Assembly: GCF_023952475.1 (NCBI RefSeq)
Contig: NZ_JALHRX010000001.1
Location: forward strand, 186,001-250,000
Length of the DNA stretch: 64,000 bases
Origin: Cupriavidus sp. WGlv3
GTDB lineage: Bacteria > Pseudomonadota > Gammaproteobacteria > Burkholderiales > Burkholderiaceae
Reading direction: 5' to 3'
The first letter of the stretch is position 1; every line of letters begins with the position of its first letter. A model generated the notes under the pieces. The model did no database searches, was not told the origin of the DNA, and saw nothing but the letters and a program-made list of their open reading frames with translations. The position numbers and the translations under genes are program-made. This document shows, piece after piece, positions 42,564-50,283 of this stretch.

Positions 42564-44315
42564 ATGCTGCGCAGCCTGTCCATCCGTGATTTCGTCATCG
42601 TCGACACCCTCGACCTGGACTTCGCCTCCGGTTTTACCGTCTTCACCGGCGAGACCGGCGCCGGCAAGTCGATCCTGATCGATGCCCTGGCGCTGGTGCT
42701 GGGCGAGCGCGCCGATGCCGGCGTGGTGCGCGAAGGCGCGCCGCGCGCCAGCGTCAGCGCCACCTTCTCGACCCATGCCGCGCTCGATGCGTGGCTGGCC
42801 GAGCGCGAGCTCAACAGCGAAGAAGACGGCGGCGTGCCGACCGTGCTGCTGCGTCGTACGGTCGATGCCGGCGGCCGCAGCAAGGCCTTTATCAACGGCG
42901 CCGCCGCCACCCTGGCGCAGCTGCGCGAAGTCGGTGACCAGCTGGTCGACATCCATGGCCAGCATGCGCACCAGCAACTGCTGCGCCCGGATGCGCAGCG
43001 GCTGCTGTTCGACGCCCACGCCGGCCTGACGCAGCAGGCCGTCGCGGTCGCCGAGGCCTGGCGTGCCTGGCGTGCCTGCGTGCGCCAGCGCGAAGCGGTC
43101 GAGCACCAGTCGCGCGAGATGCAGCTCGAGCGCGAGCGGCTCGAATGGCAGGTCGGCGAGCTCGACAAGCTCAACCCGCAGCCGGGCGAATGGGACGAGA
43201 TCCAGTCGGAGTACAACCGGCTCTCGCACGCCGCCGGCCTGATCGACGGCAGCCGCGCCGCCCTCGACGCGCTGTCCGAGGCCGACGGCTCGGTGCTGTC
43301 GGCGCTCAACGGCATCGTGCACCGGCTGCAGCAGCTGGCCGATGTCGACCCCGCGCTGCGCGACGTGCTGGCCGCGCTCGAGCCGGCGCAGGTGCAGGCC
43401 GAGGAAGCCGCGCATTCGCTGACGCGCTATGTCGACCGGCTCGAGCTCGACCCCGAGCGGCTGCAGGCGGTCGAGGAGCGCATGCAGGCGCTGCACGCCA
43501 CCGCGCGCAAGTACCGCCTGCCGCCCGAGCAGCTCGCCGATGAGCTGGTCGCGCGCCGCCAGCAGCTCGACGACCTGCAGGCCGCGCAGGACCTGAACAA
43601 GGTGATGGCGCGCGAGGCCGCGGCCAAGGCCGCCTACCTGACGCTGGCGCAGCACCTCAGCCATGCCCGCCAGCAAGCCGCGCAGGCGCTGTCCGGCGCG
43701 GTCACCGACGCCATGCAGGGCCTGTCGATGGCCGGCGGCAGCTTTGTCGCGGCGCTCAATGCGCTCGACGAAGGCCAGAGCTACGGCCTCGAGCAGGTCG
43801 AGTTCCTGGTGGCGGGCCACGCCGGCGTCAGCGCGCGCCCGCTGGCCCGGGTGGCCTCCGGCGGCGAACTGGCGCGCATCAGCCTGGCGATCTCGGTGAT
43901 CACCAGCGAAGCCTCGCCCACGCCCACGCTGATCTTCGACGAAGTCGACACCGGCATCGGCGGCGCGGTCGCCGAGGTGGTCGGCCGGCGCCTGCAGGAA
44001 CTCGGCCGCGCGCGCCAGGTGCTGTGCGTGACCCACCTGCCGCAAGTGGCGGCGCAGGCCGGCACGCATCTGCTGGTCAGCAAGGAAACCATGGCCGAGG
44101 CCGACGCCTCGGTGACGCGTTCGCGCATCCGCGTGCTCGACCCGGCCGGCCGCGTGGTCGAGACCGCGCGCATGCTGGGCGGCGCCACCGTCACCGCCAC
44201 GACGCTGCAACATGCCGAGGAGATGCTGGCGCAGGGCATGGCCGACAGCGGCGCCGGCCAGCCCGCGCGCGCGGGCAAGGACGGCAAGCGCGGCCGCCGC
44301 GCCGCCGCGGGCTGA
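42564..44315 (+). CDS. recN: DNA repair protein RecN
   Basis: SMC-like ATPase for double-strand-break repair. 583 residues: Walker A FTGETGAGKSILIDAL near residue 30, a central coiled coil (about 150-370), signature RVASGGELARISLAI and Walker B LIFDEVDTGIGGAVAEVVG near 450. A Lys/Arg-rich C-terminal tail (ARAGKDGKRGRRAAAG) follows the conserved domain. A short tandem repeat at about 43061-43080 encodes two AWRA copies. nadK-recN is a common pair in betaproteobacteria. Confidence 0.97.
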   Translation: MLRSLSIRDFVIVDTLDLDFASGFTVFTGETGAGKSILIDALALVLGERADAGVVREGAPRASVSATFSTHAALDAWLAERELNSEEDGGVPTVLLRRTVDAGGRSKAFINGAAATLAQLREVGDQLVDIHGQHAHQQLLRPDAQRLLFDAHAGLTQQAVAVAEAWRAWRACVRQREAVEHQSREMQLERERLEWQVGELDKLNPQPGEWDEIQSEYNRLSHAAGLIDGSRAALDALSEADGSVLSALNGIVHRLQQLADVDPALRDVLAALEPAQVQAEEAAHSLTRYVDRLELDPERLQAVEERMQALHATARKYRLPPEQLADELVARRQQLDDLQAAQDLNKVMAREAAAKAAYLTLAQHLSHARQQAAQALSGAVTDAMQGLSMAGGSFVAALNALDEGQSYGLEQVEFLVAGHAGVSARPLARVASGGELARISLAISVITSEASPTPTLIFDEVDTGIGGAVAEVVGRRLQELGRARQVLCVTHLPQVAAQAGTHLLVSKETMAEADASVTRSRIRVLDPAGRVVETARMLGGATVTATTLQHAEEMLAQGMADSGAGQPARAGKDGKRGRRAAAG

Positions 44316-44380
44316 ACGCCGCCCCCGATTGCGCGGCCTTGCGTGGCATCGTCCATTTATTCATTGAAAGGAGCTTCCCC

Positions 44381-44827
44381 ATGACCCGCCCAGCGCCGCC
44401 CACCGGCCACCGCCCGCGCGCCTCGCTGCGCGCGGTGCTCGCCATTGTCACCGCCGCCTCGGCCGCACTGCTGGCACTGTCCGCCTGCCAGGCCCAGCCC
44501 AAGGCCTCGGCGCCGCCGCCGGGCAGCATCAGCGATGACCGTGCGCTTGGCGACATCATGGTCCGCTTCAAGCCGCCCGCGGTGGACCTGTCCGAAGACG
44601 CCGGCAAGCTGCTGGCCGAGATCAAGGGCCCGATCCGCTACGTGGTCAAGCGGCCGATGTCGGGCGGGGTCTGGCTGGTCACGGCGATCTCGCCGTCGGC
44701 CGACGCCACCCTCGACCAGGCCGTCGACACGCTGCGCGCCACGCCGCGCATCGAGACCGCCGAACCCGACCGGCTGCTCAAGCCCAGCCGCAATATTCCC
44801 ACCAGCCGCGACATGCCGGCGCGCTAG
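44381..44827 (+). CDS. Lipoprotein resembling a free-standing subtilase propeptide
   Basis: 148 residues. A signal peptide ends in the lipobox LSAC (Cys36). The mature part contains IMVRFKPPAVDL, RPMSGGVWLVTAI (91-103) and LRATPRIETAEPDRLLKP (118-135). These line up block by block with the N-terminal pro-region of the S8 protease encoded 151 bases downstream (IIVRWRDG; RRAMGGNLQLLQV at 92-104; LRQDPRVADAVPDRWLRL at 119-136). The simplest reading is a membrane-tethered I9-like chaperone or inhibitor for that protease; this is inference from my own side-by-side reading. GAAAGGAG stands before the ATG, a good ribosome site. Confidence 0.8.
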   Translation: MTRPAPPTGHRPRASLRAVLAIVTAASAALLALSACQAQPKASAPPPGSISDDRALGDIMVRFKPPAVDLSEDAGKLLAEIKGPIRYVVKRPMSGGVWLVTAISPSADATLDQAVDTLRATPRIETAEPDRLLKPSRNIPTSRDMPAR

Positions 44828-44978
44828 CACGGGGCGGAATCTGTACGGAACGCCGCATTAACGAACGCGAACGATTCCAAAGCCGGCCTTGCACAACCCG
44901 GCGGGATCGTATTCGCTACATAGCATGCCCACGCGCCGGCCCGGCCCGAGCGCGCTACGCCCCAGGGAGGAGAAATCC

Positions 44979-46610
44979 ATGCCGCAATCCGCGCTGTCCG
45001 TATTCCGCCGCAGCCTCGCGGCCCGCCGCTGGCGGGCCATCGCCCTGGCCGCCGCCGCTGCATGCGGCGCGGTCCCGACCGGCACGGCACTCGCAGCCGG
45101 CGCGCAGTCCGCACCGGCCTATACCGGCCACATCATCGTGCGCTGGCGCGACGGCACCACCGCGGTCGACGGCAATGGCGCCGGCAAGTCGCCGGCTGCC
45201 GCCGAAGCCCTCAAGCAGCTGAGCGAACGCACCGGCATCGCCGTCACGGCGCGCCGCGCGATGGGCGGCAACCTGCAGCTGCTGCAGGTGCCCGACGCCT
45301 TTGCCGCCGACCCCGAGGCCGCGGCGGCACGGCTGCGCCAGGATCCGCGCGTGGCCGACGCCGTGCCCGACCGCTGGCTGCGGCTGCACGACACACTACC
45401 CGACGATCCCGAGTTCCAGGTCAACCAGCCGTACCTGAAGGGCACCGGCACCGCCGTCGGCGGCGTCAACCTGCCGCGCGCATGGGACCGCACCGGCGGC
45501 AGCAGCGGCATGGTGGTCGCGGTGGTGGACACCGGCATCCTGCCCCATCCCGATCTGCAGGGACGGCTGCTGTCCGGCTTCGACTTCATCAGCACCACCA
45601 CGGTCTCCAATGACGGCGACGGCCGCGACGGCGATCCGACCGATGCCGGCGACGGCCTGCCGGCCGGCTTCACCTGTCCGGGCAGCAGCACGCCTACGCC
45701 GGAGCCGACCAACAACAGCTGGCATGGCACGCGCGTGGCCGGCGTGCTGGGTGCGCTGACCAACAACGCGCGCGATATCGCGGGGGTCGACTGGAATGCG
45801 CGCATCCTGCCGGTGCGGGTCTCGGGACGCTGCGGCGCGCTGCTGTCCGACACCGTCGACGGCATGCGCTGGGCCGGCGGCCTGCCGGTGCCGAACGTGC
45901 CGGCCAACCCGACCCCGGCGCGCGTGGTCAATATCAGCCTGGGCGGCGGCACCTGCAGCGGCATCGAGCAGCAAGCCGTCAACGACCTGAATGCGCGCGG
46001 CGTGGTGGTGGTGGCCGCGGCCGGCAACAACCGCGGCGCGGTCGAGGCGCCGGCCGACTGCAGCGGCGTGATCGCGGTCACCGCGCACGCCAACGGCGGC
46101 GAGAACGCCAGCTATGCCAACGTCGGCCCGCAGGTGGCGATCAGCGCGCCGGGCGGCGGCTGCGGCAACTCGCAGGTGGTCGACGGCCGCTGCACGGTCA
46201 CGCCTTCGGTGATCCGCACGCTCAGCAACGACGGCAAGACGGCGCTGGGCAACTACGTGGTGGCGTCGGCGGCGGGCACCAGTTTCGCCGCGCCGATGGT
46301 CTCTGGCGTGGTGTCGATGATGTTCACGCTCAACGGCTCGCTGACGCCGGCGCAGGTCACCGCGGCGCTGAAGAGCTCGGCGCGCCCGCATCCCTCCGGC
46401 ACCTTCTGCACCACTAATCAGGGCGTATGCGGCGCGGGGCTGCTCGATGCCGACGGCGCCCTGCTGGCGGCGCTGGGCATGCCACCGCCACCGGCCGCGC
46501 CGGCACCGGCCGCGGATGGCGGCGGCGGCGGTGGCGCGGTGCCGCTGTGGAGCGCGCTGCTGCTCGCCGTGGCGGGACTGTTCAGCTTCGCGCTGCGCCG
46601 CCGCGGCTAG
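44979..46610 (+). CDS. Secreted S8 (subtilisin-like) protease with a GlyGly-CTERM-type tail
   Basis: 543 residues. Signal peptide about 1-40, pro-region about 48-140, catalytic domain about 165-500 with Asp184 (VVDTGILPH), His249 (NSWHGTRVAG), oxyanion Asn350 (AAAGNN) and Ser435 (GTSFAAPMVSG). The C-terminus has a Pro/Ala linker, a Gly6 run (514-519), one hydrophobic segment (522-538) and Arg540-542: the layout of GlyGly-CTERM sorting tails. GGGAGGAG lies 7-9 bases before the ATG; a TTG at 44889 in the same frame is rejected. The convergent rhombosortase-like gene ends 40 bases away, supporting processing of the tail. Several Cys pairs suggest disulfides. Confidence 0.92.
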   Translation: MPQSALSVFRRSLAARRWRAIALAAAAACGAVPTGTALAAGAQSAPAYTGHIIVRWRDGTTAVDGNGAGKSPAAAEALKQLSERTGIAVTARRAMGGNLQLLQVPDAFAADPEAAAARLRQDPRVADAVPDRWLRLHDTLPDDPEFQVNQPYLKGTGTAVGGVNLPRAWDRTGGSSGMVVAVVDTGILPHPDLQGRLLSGFDFISTTTVSNDGDGRDGDPTDAGDGLPAGFTCPGSSTPTPEPTNNSWHGTRVAGVLGALTNNARDIAGVDWNARILPVRVSGRCGALLSDTVDGMRWAGGLPVPNVPANPTPARVVNISLGGGTCSGIEQQAVNDLNARGVVVVAAAGNNRGAVEAPADCSGVIAVTAHANGGENASYANVGPQVAISAPGGGCGNSQVVDGRCTVTPSVIRTLSNDGKTALGNYVVASAAGTSFAAPMVSGVVSMMFTLNGSLTPAQVTAALKSSARPHPSGTFCTTNQGVCGAGLLDADGALLAALGMPPPPAAPAPAADGGGGGGAVPLWSALLLAVAGLFSFALRRRG

Positions 46611-46649: not shown

Positions 46650-47291
46650 CTATCGCCCGCCGCTATCGCGCGCCGGCCGCCGCGCCAGCCACCATTCCTG
46701 CAGAACCCAGCACAGCAGGCCGGCCACGGCGCCGGCCGCATGCGCCACGCGCACCACGCCGAAGCCCCACGCCGGATCGAACACCACCGGCGCCAGCCAC
46801 GACTGTTCCACCCAGACCTTGGCCAGCACGCCCAGGCACAGCAGCACGCCGGTGATGCGCGCCAGTCCCGGCGCGCGCAGCAGCCCCAGCGCGCCCCACA
46901 GCGCCAGCCCGTGCAGCGCGCCCGAGAGCCCGCCGTACCAGGCAATGGCCGGCACGCGCAGCAGCACCAGCTGCACCGCGATGCCGCACGCCACCAGCAC
47001 CAGCAACAGGCTGCGCGCCCGCGCCACGCGCGCGCAGATCGCCAGCACGCCGGTGGCGGCGAGCATGTCAGCCAGCCAGTGATGGCCGTCCAGGTGTACC
47101 CACATCGCCGTGGCCAGGCGCCACCACTGGCCGTCCACCCGCACGGCATCGCGCAGGTACAGGCCATGCGCGTGCCACCACGGCAGGAAGGTGAACGCCG
47201 CCGACAGCGCCCATACCAGCGCCACCGCCGCCAACAGCCCCGGCCAAGATGCGCCGGCGGGTGCCGGCGGCCCCGCGGCGTCAGTCCTCAC
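46650..47291 (-). CDS. rrtA: Rhombosortase-like rhomboid intramembrane protease
   Basis: 213 residues from a GTG that overlaps the glnE stop. About six hydrophobic segments. The catalytic Ser123 is in YGGLSGALHG and the His184 in RVAHAAGAVAGLL; the N-terminal HLDGHHWLADMLA matches the conserved H-x-x-x-H region of the family. Rhombosortases cleave and anchor or release proteins bearing GlyGly-CTERM tails, and exactly such a protein is encoded next door in convergent orientation. The start is uncertain: an in-frame ATG at 47447 would place 52 unlikely residues inside glnE. Confidence 0.85.
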   Translation of the reverse strand: MRTDAAGPPAPAGASWPGLLAAVALVWALSAAFTFLPWWHAHGLYLRDAVRVDGQWWRLATAMWVHLDGHHWLADMLAATGVLAICARVARARSLLLVLVACGIAVQLVLLRVPAIAWYGGLSGALHGLALWGALGLLRAPGLARITGVLLCLGVLAKVWVEQSWLAPVVFDPAWGFGVVRVAHAAGAVAGLLCWVLQEWWLARRPARDSGGR

Positions 47292-50283
47292 CGAACACGG
47301 CCCGCCACAGCGTGCCCACCGCGGCGGTCTGCGCGGCCATCGATGCCGGCGCCACGCGCGCATGGACCTGGCCGTCGAGGCGCAGCTGGTGCTGGCGCGC
47401 GCGGAACAGCCGGTAGGCATCGCCCACCGCCAGCGCCAGCGTGGCATCGATCAGGCCCAGCTCGCCGGCTTCGCGCAGCAGCGCGATATTGCCGGCATTG
47501 CGCGTCAGCTGCGGATGGGCGCGGCTATGCAGCAGCACCAGGTACTGCACCGTGAATTCGATATCGACCATGCCGCCGCGATCGTGCTTCAGATCGAACA
47601 GGTCGGTGGGGTTGGGATGGCCTTCGGCAACCTTGCGGCGCATCTGCGCGATCTCGTCGCGCAGCGCCGCGGCGTCGCGCTCCTGGCACAGCACCTCGCC
47701 GCGCAGCGCCTCGAAGCGCGCGCCGATGGCGGCGTCGCCGGCGCAGAAGCGCGCGCGCGTCAGCGCCTGGTGCTCCCAGACCCACGCGGTGTTGTCGCCC
47801 TCGCGCAGCTGGTAGCGGCGGAACGCGTCGAAGCTGGTCACCAGCAGGCCGGCCGCACCATTGGGGCGCAGCCGCGTGTCGACGTCGAACAGCGCGCCGG
47901 CCGCGGTATGGCTGGTGAGCCAGGTGATCAGGCGGCGCGCATAGGCGGCATAGACCTCGGGCGCGCGCTCGTGCTCGTCGTCGTACAGGAAGATGATGTC
48001 CAGGTCCGAGGCATAGCCCAGTTCCTTGCCGCCCAGCCGGCCATAGGCGATCACGGCGAAGCGCGGCACCTCGCGGTGGCGCGTGGCGAGCTGGCGCCAC
48101 ACCGTCTCCAGGGTCGCGTCGAGCATGGCATCGGCCAGGTCCGAAAGGCGGTCGGCCACCTGCTCCACCGTCAGCATGCCCTGCAGGTCCTGCAGCAGCA
48201 CGCGGAAGGTCTCGGCATGGTGCTCGCGGCGCAGGATGTCCATCTGCTGCTCGACCTGCCCCTCCGCGGCCAGCAGCCGTTCATGCAGGCGCTTGCGGAA
48301 CGCGGTCCAGTCGGGCGCGCCGGCCAGCGCGTCGCTGTCGAGCAGCTCGTCGAGCAGTTGCGGATGGCGCGTCAGGTAGGCTGCGGCCCAGCGCGAGGCA
48401 TGCAGCGTCTGCGCGACGCGGTCCATCGCCTGCGGGTATTCGGAAAGCAGCGACAGGTAGGAGGCGCGCCGGCTGATCGCCTCGAGGAAGTCGATAAAGC
48501 GTCCGATGGTGCTGTCGGGATCGTCCTGGCGCGCGGCCAGGTCGAGCGCGCGGTTGACCAGCTGGTCGAAGCGCGCGCGGCTGGCTTCGGACAGCGCGCG
48601 GTAGCGCAGCGACGCGGCGATCGCGCGCAGCCGGTCCAGCAGCGCATTGCAGTCGGTAAAGCCGGCGGCCTGCAGCCGCTGGCACGGCACCGCGCTGTCT
48701 TCCACACTGTCGGCCGCGCCCTGCGACGGGTCCTGGCGCGGGTTGTCCTGCGCGCGCGCGGCGCTGTCTTCCATGACGATGTCCGGCCACAGCGCCTCGC
48801 ACGGGCCGGCGTCGGGGTCGGAGAAGGTGGCTTCGAATTGCTGCGCCACCGGTTCCTGCAGCTCGGCAAGCCGCGCCAGCAAGGCCGGCCAGTCGGCGCA
48901 GCCCATCATCTGCGCCACCGCGTGCTGCTCGTCCGGTGAGGTCGGCAGATGGTGGGTCTGCGCGTCGTCGCGGTATTGCAGCCGGTGTTCGAGCTGGCGC
49001 AGGAAGCGGTAGGCGTCGCCCAGCTGCCCGGCCTGCGCGGCGGGCAGCAGGCCGCGCTCGACCGCCACCGCCAGCACCTCCAGCGTCGGCCGGATGCGCA
49101 GCGCGGGATCCTGGCCGCCGCGGATCAGCTGGAACACCTGCGCCATGAATTCGATCTCGCGGATGCCGCCACGGCCCAGCTTGATATTGAACGAGCGCTG
49201 GTTGACACCGTGCCCGGGCAGGCCGCCGCTGCGCTTGGCGGCCTCGCTGCGGATCTGCGCATGCAGCGAGCGGATCGCCGCGATCACGCCGTAGTCCAGG
49301 TAGCGCCGGAATACGAACGGCGAGGTCAGCCGCGCCAGCAGACCGGCGGTCCGCTGCGCATGGGGCGAGTCCAGCGCCGACACCACGCGGCCCTTGATCC
49401 AGGCGTAGCGCTCCCACTCGCGGCCCTGCACCACCAGGTATTCCTCCAGCATGCCCAGGCTGCAGGCCAGCGGCCCGGCATCGCCGTTGGGACGCAGCCG
49501 CATGTCGACACGGAACACATAGCCGTCGGCGGTCACGTCGGCGAGCAGGTTGATCAGGCGGCGGCCCAGGCGGATGAAGTACTCGTGGTTGGACAGTGTG
49601 CGCGGGCCGCCCTGGGTGTCGCCGTCCTCGTCGTAGAGGAAGATCAGGTCGATATCGGACGAGACATTGAGCTCGCGCCCGCCCAGCTTGCCCATGCCCA
49701 CCACCACCAGCTCCTGTACCTCGCCACTGTGGGCGCCGACCGGGCGGCCGAAGGTGGCGGCAAGATCGTCGCCCAGCACCGCCAGGCCGTGCTGGATCGC
49801 CAGTTCGGCCAGGTCGGTCATGGCGCCGGTAACCTCGCCCAGCGTGGCCAGGCCGCGCAGGTCGCGCTCGATCACCGCGCACATGACCTCGGCGCGCAGC
49901 CGACGCAGCGCACGCTTGGCGGCATCTTCGGCGTCGGCCGAGGGCGCATGCAGCGCCTGCAGCCGTGCCGCCATCCAGGCGCGCGTAAGCGGCTGCGCCA
50001 CCGCGGCGGCGAGGACTTCCGGAAGGTCCGGGCGGGCCTGCAGCACGCGCCGCGCGTAGTGCGAGTACGAGGCCGAGTACAATACGTCGCCGCCTGCCCG
50101 GGCGCCTTCGCCATCCGGCTGCAGCGCCTGCGCCGCGGTGACGGCAAAGGCGCCGGCGGACATGGTGCCGGGGCCCTGCCCCGGCGCGACGGACGCCGCA
50201 TGGGCGGGTTCCGGTGTGGCGCGCGCGCCATGTTGGTCAGCAGCGTCGCCAGTGGCGGAACTCGTCGGATCAGAGGCAGTCAT
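47281..50283 (-). CDS. glnE: Bifunctional glutamine synthetase adenylyltransferase/deadenylase
   Basis: Switches glutamine synthetase off and on by adding or removing AMP under control of PII. About 1000 residues from MTASDPTSSATGDAAD. Two nucleotidyltransferase domains are visible: GMGKLGGRELNVSSDIDLIFLY (N-terminal, deadenylase) and AYGRLGGKELGYASDLDIIFLYDD (C-terminal, adenylylase), each followed by a regulatory helical domain. The first 80 residues are low-complexity and not conserved. It is divergent from yhdP. Confidence 0.96.
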   Translation of the reverse strand: MTASDPTSSATGDAADQHGARATPEPAHAASVAPGQGPGTMSAGAFAVTAAQALQPDGEGARAGGDVLYSASYSHYARRVLQARPDLPEVLAAAVAQPLTRAWMAARLQALHAPSADAEDAAKRALRRLRAEVMCAVIERDLRGLATLGEVTGAMTDLAELAIQHGLAVLGDDLAATFGRPVGAHSGEVQELVVVGMGKLGGRELNVSSDIDLIFLYDEDGDTQGGPRTLSNHEYFIRLGRRLINLLADVTADGYVFRVDMRLRPNGDAGPLACSLGMLEEYLVVQGREWERYAWIKGRVVSALDSPHAQRTAGLLARLTSPFVFRRYLDYGVIAAIRSLHAQIRSEAAKRSGGLPGHGVNQRSFNIKLGRGGIREIEFMAQVFQLIRGGQDPALRIRPTLEVLAVAVERGLLPAAQAGQLGDAYRFLRQLEHRLQYRDDAQTHHLPTSPDEQHAVAQMMGCADWPALLARLAELQEPVAQQFEATFSDPDAGPCEALWPDIVMEDSAARAQDNPRQDPSQGAADSVEDSAVPCQRLQAAGFTDCNALLDRLRAIAASLRYRALSEASRARFDQLVNRALDLAARQDDPDSTIGRFIDFLEAISRRASYLSLLSEYPQAMDRVAQTLHASRWAAAYLTRHPQLLDELLDSDALAGAPDWTAFRKRLHERLLAAEGQVEQQMDILRREHHAETFRVLLQDLQGMLTVEQVADRLSDLADAMLDATLETVWRQLATRHREVPRFAVIAYGRLGGKELGYASDLDIIFLYDDEHERAPEVYAAYARRLITWLTSHTAAGALFDVDTRLRPNGAAGLLVTSFDAFRRYQLREGDNTAWVWEHQALTRARFCAGDAAIGARFEALRGEVLCQERDAAALRDEIAQMRRKVAEGHPNPTDLFDLKHDRGGMVDIEFTVQYLVLLHSRAHPQLTRNAGNIALLREAGELGLIDATLALAVGDAYRLFRARQHQLRLDGQVHARVAPASMAAQTAAVGTLWRAVFGED

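Follow-up and report, generated by a model that had tools for sequence, protein, structure and literature searches.

The potempins of Tannerella are inhibitors encoded beside genes of secreted proteases, a gene arrangement that resembles the one analysed here. In a 64,000-nt stretch of the genome of Cupriavidus sp. WGlv3 (the whole of which we call the window), the gene of a 148-aa propeptide-like lipoprotein, LP, lies directly upstream of that of a subtilase, S8. Stand-alone propeptide mimics encoded beside proteases (Spi, SUB1-ProM) are already known, and for other proteases lipoprotein inhibitors encoded next to them have been predicted (Bfi; PMC2873492; the papers cited in this text are drawn on in excerpt). 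In Streptococcus pyogenes the small gene of Spi, an inhibitor analogous to a propeptide, adjoins that of the protease SpeB, and protection of the producer has been suggested as its role (PMC2873492); SpeB, however, is a C10 cysteine protease, whereas the partner of LP belongs to S8 and LP is predicted to have a lipid anchor and a link to CTERM sorting. SUB1-ProM of Plasmodium, TgMIC5, POIA1, the yeast peptidase B inhibitor and AtSPI1 are stand-alone S8-propeptide-like proteins, and the gene of SUB1-ProM shows synteny with those of subtilases; unlike LP, the SUB1-ProM/TgMIC5/I9 group is eukaryotic, and the excerpted source mentions neither a lipid anchor nor a sorting-enzyme partner for it (PMC6993865).

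Two further bacterial systems combine a secreted protease with a small protein encoded next to it. ORF2 of Aeromonas sobria is encoded beside the subtilase ASP and binds at its active site, but ASP has no propeptide and orf2 lies downstream, whereas LP usually lies upstream of an S8 that keeps its pro-region (PMC5638518); with cis pro-regions in the partners examined, LP falls outside the ASP/ORF2 type, in which the protease lacks a propeptide of its own. The Bfi inhibitors of Bacteroides fragilis are encoded beside secreted proteases, and Bfi1B and Bfi4 are predicted outer-membrane lipoproteins, but these proteins are staphostatin-like and have no significant identity to propeptides (PMC2873492). 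Finally, the window's S8 and the rhombosortase gene next to it resemble a dedicated GlyGly-CTERM/rhombosortase pair (PMC3237569), and such pairs from Cupriavidus taiwanensis and R. eutropha H16 appear in Table 3 of that 2011 paper; its main text, however, contains neither the word lipoprotein nor the word propeptide, and no LP partner is described there or in the excerpts of a later study (PMC3237569, PMC6219818). The first-pass annotation of this DNA had known of no description of the pair, and none of a bacterial S8 with a lipid-anchored, propeptide-like partner turned up among the matches listed in the literature on CTERM sorting, stand-alone propeptides and Bacteroides-type lipoprotein inhibitors, a coverage that leaves aside most subscription literature and does not prove absence.

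Homology of LP to the subtilase pro-region

The first-pass annotation placed both genes correctly (Table 1) and took LP for a free-standing protein with a lipid anchor, related to the S8 pro-region, a proposal that profile-profile comparison, the predicted fold, the lipobox, purifying selection and conserved pairing all support. It had relied on three blocks at almost identical residue numbers: LR-x-x-PR-x-x-x-A-x-PDR is indeed exact in both proteins, at an offset of one (LP 118, S8 119); R-x-M-x-GG is exact in LP (RPMSGG from residue 91), but S8 offers only the looser RAMGGN from residue 93; and I-x-V-R is present in both, but at positions seven residues apart (LP 59, S8 52). Judged from this single pair of sequences, the similarity appears only moderately strong: BLASTP of the full-length proteins gives E=0.002 with 30% identity across 111 aa, and the LP core scores 24.6 bits against S8, a value equalled by 1 of 500 shuffled LP cores.

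Profiles give a much larger separation from controls. The LP core (17 rows) aligns with the S8 pro-region (19 rows) at probability 97.7 and E=2.1e-12, with a score of 69, whereas 200 column-shuffled controls reached at most 21.6, and a profile of 14 LPs aligns with S8 pro-regions (hhalign) at probability 99.3 and E=2.7e-20; the alignment and the shuffled controls place LP, by sequence homology, among the S8-propeptide-like (I9-type) proteins. When the genome of LP itself was searched in six frames, with 26 of 39 first-look candidates scored, the sole other LP match at E<=0.01 was the adjacent S8 pro-region (E=8.4e-4). Secondary structure is predicted as strands at residues 54-63, 86-92, 97-104 and 124-129 and helices at 71-79 and 111-120, and the AlphaFold2 model (mean pLDDT 89-97 across the 10-residue blocks of 51-130) has a predicted fold that looks propeptide-like, so the absence of an I9-like structure, which would have spoken against the relationship, is not what the model suggests.

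Standard family and structure searches return less. Foldseek with the LP model found nothing at E<=0.001 and no prosegment among the best 50 listed, the propeptide match appearing only on a second look. PDB sequence searches with the LP and S8 pro-region profiles yielded no clear relative; the 14-LP profile weakly matched the proteinase K zymogen (E 0.023) and BPN' prosegments (0.33 and 0.38), with ribosomal protein L37a ranked above all of these (E 0.013). The window's LP has no match to Inhibitor_I9 (PF05922), which one of the 14 LP sequences reaches at E 0.092, and scores 14.3 bits vs a cut-off of 21 for Fervidolysin_NPro-like (PF22148), a family matched at E<=1 by 7 of the 14 (best 1.2e-4). 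Against the Pfam propeptide models the S8 pro-region (45120-45428) had no match, the only one of any kind being RHH_3, below cut-off; Inhibitor_I9 is weakly matched by 5 of 19 relatives of this region (best E 0.075). Annotation pipelines would probably miss both LP and the S8 pro-region.

LP is a gene under purifying selection: compared with eight named Cupriavidus loci, its dN/dS is 0.14-0.25 (8 comparisons), the same loci giving 0.04-0.56 for the S8 pro-region, 0.09-0.26 for the catalytic domain and 0.04-0.10 for RecN, and LP cores of named Cupriavidus species are up to 99% identical to that of the window. Its LSAC-Q lipobox, with a Cys followed by a residue other than Asp, gives it the features of a bacterial lipoprotein and, by the outer-membrane sorting rule, of one probably destined for that membrane. 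By the pattern of our script, a lipobox is present in 14 of 14 LP lineages (G727 having the atypical TCAC) and in 40 of 45 named LP loci from Cupriavidus, Ralstonia and Burkholderiaceae, the other five having none; Asp occupies +2 in 0 of the 14 lineages and 0 of the 40 named loci with a scored lipobox.

As to origin, a tree of 40 pro-domains (40 rows, 82 columns, long branches present; computed without L174_LP and the L148 and L156 pro-regions) puts LPs and S8 pro-regions of the window's family on one side of a branch (93/97, not starred). The LP labels need four changes on this tree, of which starred branches force only one, and a single clade of all LPs (AU p 0.049) is neither shown nor firmly rejected. 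Because 82 columns are too few, the tree cannot settle the matter; it leans towards a local duplication in the window's family, perhaps repeated in other families. The more specific suggestion of the first-pass annotation, that the pro-region of this very S8 was duplicated, is favoured by the tree but unproven.

The LP-S8 locus and its distribution

The gene order is nadK, recN, LP and S8, followed on the opposite strand by a rhombosortase gene and glnE (nadK, recN and glnE named by eye). S8, too, is preceded by a Shine-Dalgarno-like sequence, and a scan of 44200-45100 gave neither a promoter nor a terminator consensus. The catalytic triad of S8 (D184, H249, S435) is invariant in 42 of 42 aligned sequences. 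Elsewhere the genome encodes a type II secretin (627.7 bits vs a cut-off of 351.35). Given the GlyGly-CTERM tail (TIGR03867), the adjacent rhombosortase (TIGR03902) and this secretin, which together characterise a substrate pair of the GlyGly-CTERM/rhombosortase kind, we predict that S8 is processed by rhombosortase and delivered to the surface by type II secretion, as has been reported for the trypsin-like protease VesB (PMC6219818). The tail and the rhombosortase gene had escaped the first-pass annotation, and they shape the likely mechanism of the pair. For two of the three S8 genes of this genome (C78, C87), the fetched stretches contained no convincing LP-like open reading frame (ORF).

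Table 1. Features of the LP-S8 locus (positions in the window) and of two loci with LP only
Feature	Position	Strand	Basis or remark
Shine-Dalgarno-like AAAGGAG 5' of LP gene	44367..44373	+	sequence
LP gene, propeptide-like lipoprotein, 148 aa	44381..44827	+	ORF; purifying selection; free-standing in 28/150 family genomes
LP residues 1-36: signal peptide with lipobox LSA-C36; Gln at +2	44381..44488	+	
LP propeptide-like domain, residues 51-131	44531..44773	+	AlphaFold2 model and hhalign to S8 pro-regions
LP E-x-D motif, residues 128-130	44762..44770	+	aligns with the helix-capping pair Glu69/Asp71 in the propeptide of subtilisin BPN'
LP C-terminal tail, residues 131-148	44771..44824	+	18 residues past Asp; shorter in most other lineages
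S8 subtilase gene, 543 aa: leader, pro-region, catalytic domain, GlyGly-CTERM	44979..46610	+	
S8 pro-region	45120..45392	+	mature enzyme probably starts near T139, judging from solved relatives
S8 catalytic domain, PF00082, residues 176-469	45504..46385	+	Peptidase_S8 E 1.8e-43
GlyGly-CTERM sorting tail, residues 516-542	46524..46604	+	TIGR03867 35.5 bits vs cut-off 19.7
Rhombosortase gene (start position approximate)	46650..47447	-	TIGR03902 131.5 bits vs cut-off 84
Orphan propeptide-like lipoproteins	L250:7375-7827 and L252:7327-7845	+	G876 and G870

We searched 150 genomes of the window's family, Burkholderiaceae, for LP; counts from this and the wider surveys are lower bounds, since in each genome a first look scores only some of the candidates (12 to 26). 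Matches occur in 33 genomes and a free-standing LP in 28, namely 14 of Cupriavidus, 13 of genus g24 (Ralstonia) and G004. The five other matches belong to genus g25, and in the two that were inspected (L032, L033; the other three are G025, G059 and G088) the match is the S8's own pro-region. A rhombosortase over cut-off is present in 28 of the 150 genomes, the same 28 that have a free-standing LP (Fisher p 5e-31, a value that overstates independence because the 28 genomes represent three genera only). LP adjoins S8 in all 20 wider neighbourhoods fetched from these genomes, with a rhombosortase visible in 18 (contig ends truncate the remaining two), and lies directly upstream of S8 in 45 of the 45 named loci, which overlap in species with the 20. 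The pair is present in all 14 sampled Cupriavidus genomes and recurs in ten other families, so that it is not the uncommon arrangement for which the first-pass annotation took it.

Ralstonia loci have one LP each and one to three S8 genes in tandem; at L035, L053 and other loci of this genus, the single LP stands beside up to three tandem GlyGly-CTERM-like subtilases. A second rhombosortase over cut-off lies elsewhere in the genome in 5 of 13 g24 genomes. At L044, L101 and L102, S8 is split into two ORFs next to an intact LP ORF, through sequencing error or decay.

Outside the family, the sorting enzyme in the neighbourhood may be either a rhombosortase or MrtJ. The order survey gave LP matches in 9 of 399 genomes. 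In G165, LP, an S8 with a JDVT-CTERM-like tail (24.1 bits vs a cut-off of 27) and MrtJ (112.2 bits, cut-off 75) are flanked by gspF and gspG within a type II secretion cluster (L139:3763-11874, minus strand) in which gspD, gspE, gspF and gspG are all over cut-off. LP overlaps an S8 with a GlyGly-like tail, judged by eye, in G206 (rhombosortase, 104.8 bits) and lies just upstream of a JDVT-CTERM S8 (30.0 bits) in G175, with MrtJ on a separate contig; in G300 a divergent lipoprotein, missed by the profiles and found by eye, overlaps an S8 whose tail is weakly JDVT-like (17.2 bits), and the MrtJ-like gene scores 74.2-74.5 bits, just below cut-off. In the class survey (21 matches in 323 genomes), 7 of the 20 matching genomes other than the window's own have a free-standing LP, in each case beside S8: with MrtJ in G691 (124.8 bits; JDVT-CTERM tail, 35.2) and G562 (110.6; tail JDVT-like by eye only), with a rhombosortase in G723, G612 and G569 (135.1, 128.1 and 159.3 bits, respectively), and with no sorter in the fetched stretch in G805 and G727. 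GlyGly tails in this set were judged by eye, G569 also having weak GlyGly-family matches. The other 13 matches are 12 S8 pro-regions, one of them in a broken S8, and one in G810. The latter (L208:7913-9865, minus strand) is a propeptide-like domain ending in EPDRTLRGG at the C-terminus of another protein, with no S8 within 15 kb; its host presumably resembles DUF3047, an assignment made by eye.

The phylum survey gave matches in 21 of 368 genomes; beyond f1, three f229 genomes were inspected, and matches elsewhere (in ORFs >=469 aa) were taken as a group. G970 has LP followed by an S8 truncated at the contig end. In G876 and G870, which have rhombosortase-like genes at 81-82 bits, just below the cut-off of 84, no S8 was detected within 16 kb of LP or genome-wide by PF00082, a search that is weak for fragments and missed even the truncated S8 of G970. 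In all, LP was found in 10 further families, with S8 directly beside it in 12 of 14 genomes, so that the two genes co-occur nearly always, but not without exception.

The converse does not hold, and we rejected LP as a constant companion of CTERM subtilases: seven rhombosortase-linked S8 loci have no detected LP (L148, L150, L151, L155 and L156 at 85-101 bits, L158 at 81.5, below cut-off, and L141 at 121.3). Neither profiles nor inspection by eye for small lipobox ORFs revealed LP beside the six S8 of the 16 order rhombosortase loci or the S8 of G525, and profiles found none beside the JDVT-like S8 of G665 (L210, 22.5 bits vs 27). No S8 was found in the other ten order rhombosortase loci, and 14 order loci around MrtJ contained a single S8.

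Candidate roles of LP

In the BPN' propeptide, Glu69 and Asp71 cap two protease helices and the C-terminal tail occupies the active-site groove (PMC6993865). At the aligned place in LP, D130 is invariant in 28 of 28 rows of the family alignment and E128 varies (Thr or Asp in relatives), with an acidic-x-Asp in 13 of the 14 lineages, each represented by one sequence. Solved mature relatives of the window's S8 begin at the residue aligned to T139 in 4 of the 5 alignments shown, so the cut in cis would fall about 7 residues past the Asp; 8 of 14 lineages have an LP that ends 5-7 residues past the conserved Asp, close to the expected terminus of a cleaved propeptide and as a product-like inhibitor would show. 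All LP-partner S8s examined keep a cis pro-region, so LP is not a substitute for a lost foldase, and the lipid anchor, with the frequent company of surface-sorting genes, suggests a safety catch bound to a compartment.

We propose, with middling confidence, that LP is an outer-membrane-tethered, periplasmic cognate inhibitor of the neighbouring subtilase in transit. LP would be a stand-alone copy of a subtilase pro-region, held by its N-terminal lipid at the periplasmic face of the outer membrane. The subtilase would leave the cytoplasm by Sec export, fold with its own cis pro-region, be cut by rhombosortase at the GlyGly-CTERM tail and then be handed over to the type II secretion system; enzyme maturing too early would be capped by LP, whose sheet would pack on two helices of the catalytic domain via E-x-D and whose tail would occupy the active-site groove in the manner of a product. 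Once exported to the surface, the subtilase would be parted from LP and its activity freed. The outer-membrane location, the binding, the inhibition and the switch between compartments are what we infer from sequence.

Several observations weigh against this proposal. The tail of LP extends 12-19 residues past the Asp in 5 of 14 lineages, and the 18-residue tail of the window's LP is not product-like unless trimmed; f229 LPs, outside the 14-lineage count, have long tails too. Some Cupriavidus LPs have Thr or Ser in place of the Glu of E-x-D (ATPD in named loci), the window's own S8 pro-region has Val there, and the G727 LP, the one with the atypical lipobox, has lost the motif. The window's LP falls below the Pfam cut-offs of propeptide families. 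The co-occurrence with rhombosortase in the family rests on three genera, two f229 genomes have LP and no detected S8, and the seven LP-less loci make the pairing dispensable. The +2 rule comes from E. coli and is silent on surface flipping.

The main rival, which we consider unlikely but to be taken seriously, makes LP a trans-acting steric chaperone (a foldase or export escort), with transient inhibition as a by-product. Propeptides do act as foldases, LP stands beside the S8 gene in every family locus inspected, and ORF2, encoded beside ASP, acts as the chaperone of that protease, whose active site it is presumed to block temporarily (PMC5638518); ASP, however, has no propeptide, whereas the LP partners examined have theirs in cis, and related S8s beside rhombosortase exist without LP.

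It is improbable that LP serves instead as a sorting adaptor or decoy that holds the zymogen at the membrane near rhombosortase, MrtJ or the type II system and leaves activity alone. CTERM-tailed S8s are recurrently accompanied by two unrelated sorting proteases, and one LP-S8 pair sits inside a type II secretion gene cluster, but a tether needs no propeptide fold, and because of the LP-less loci sorting presumably works without it. To a like degree improbable is an LP on the outer surface that inhibits, or guards against, proteases there, its own or foreign, independently of its neighbour: surface lipoproteins delivered by type II secretion are reported in Acinetobacter (PMC12802150), and the LPs of G870 and G876 would fit, but the near-constant adjacency of S8, inside the family and outside it, argues otherwise. 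That LP is a functionless, decaying local remnant of a duplicated pro-region would fit the grouping in the tree but is very improbable, contradicted as it already is by purifying selection and by the retention of LP beside S8 in all 45 named loci.

Implications for subtilase export

More tentatively than the inhibitor proposal for the window, and with some doubt, we suggest that LP, subtilase and sorting protease may form a general three-part Gram-negative module, spread over eleven families and two unrelated sorting systems, in which a tethered mimic would confine subtilase activity to the outside of the cell and control would be exerted by compartment, not by degradation. How Gram-negative bacteria handle a potent periplasmic subtilase during cleavage by a sorting enzyme and the wait for type II secretion is an open question, and a dedicated tethered propeptide mimic whose gene shares a block with that of the protease, and in many cases with that of the sorter, would, if true, be a direct and testable answer. 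LP might then be a missing member of the rhombosortase and MrtJ systems, and LP-S8 pairs would offer natural, ready-made material for work on the inhibition or folding of subtilases by propeptides in trans.
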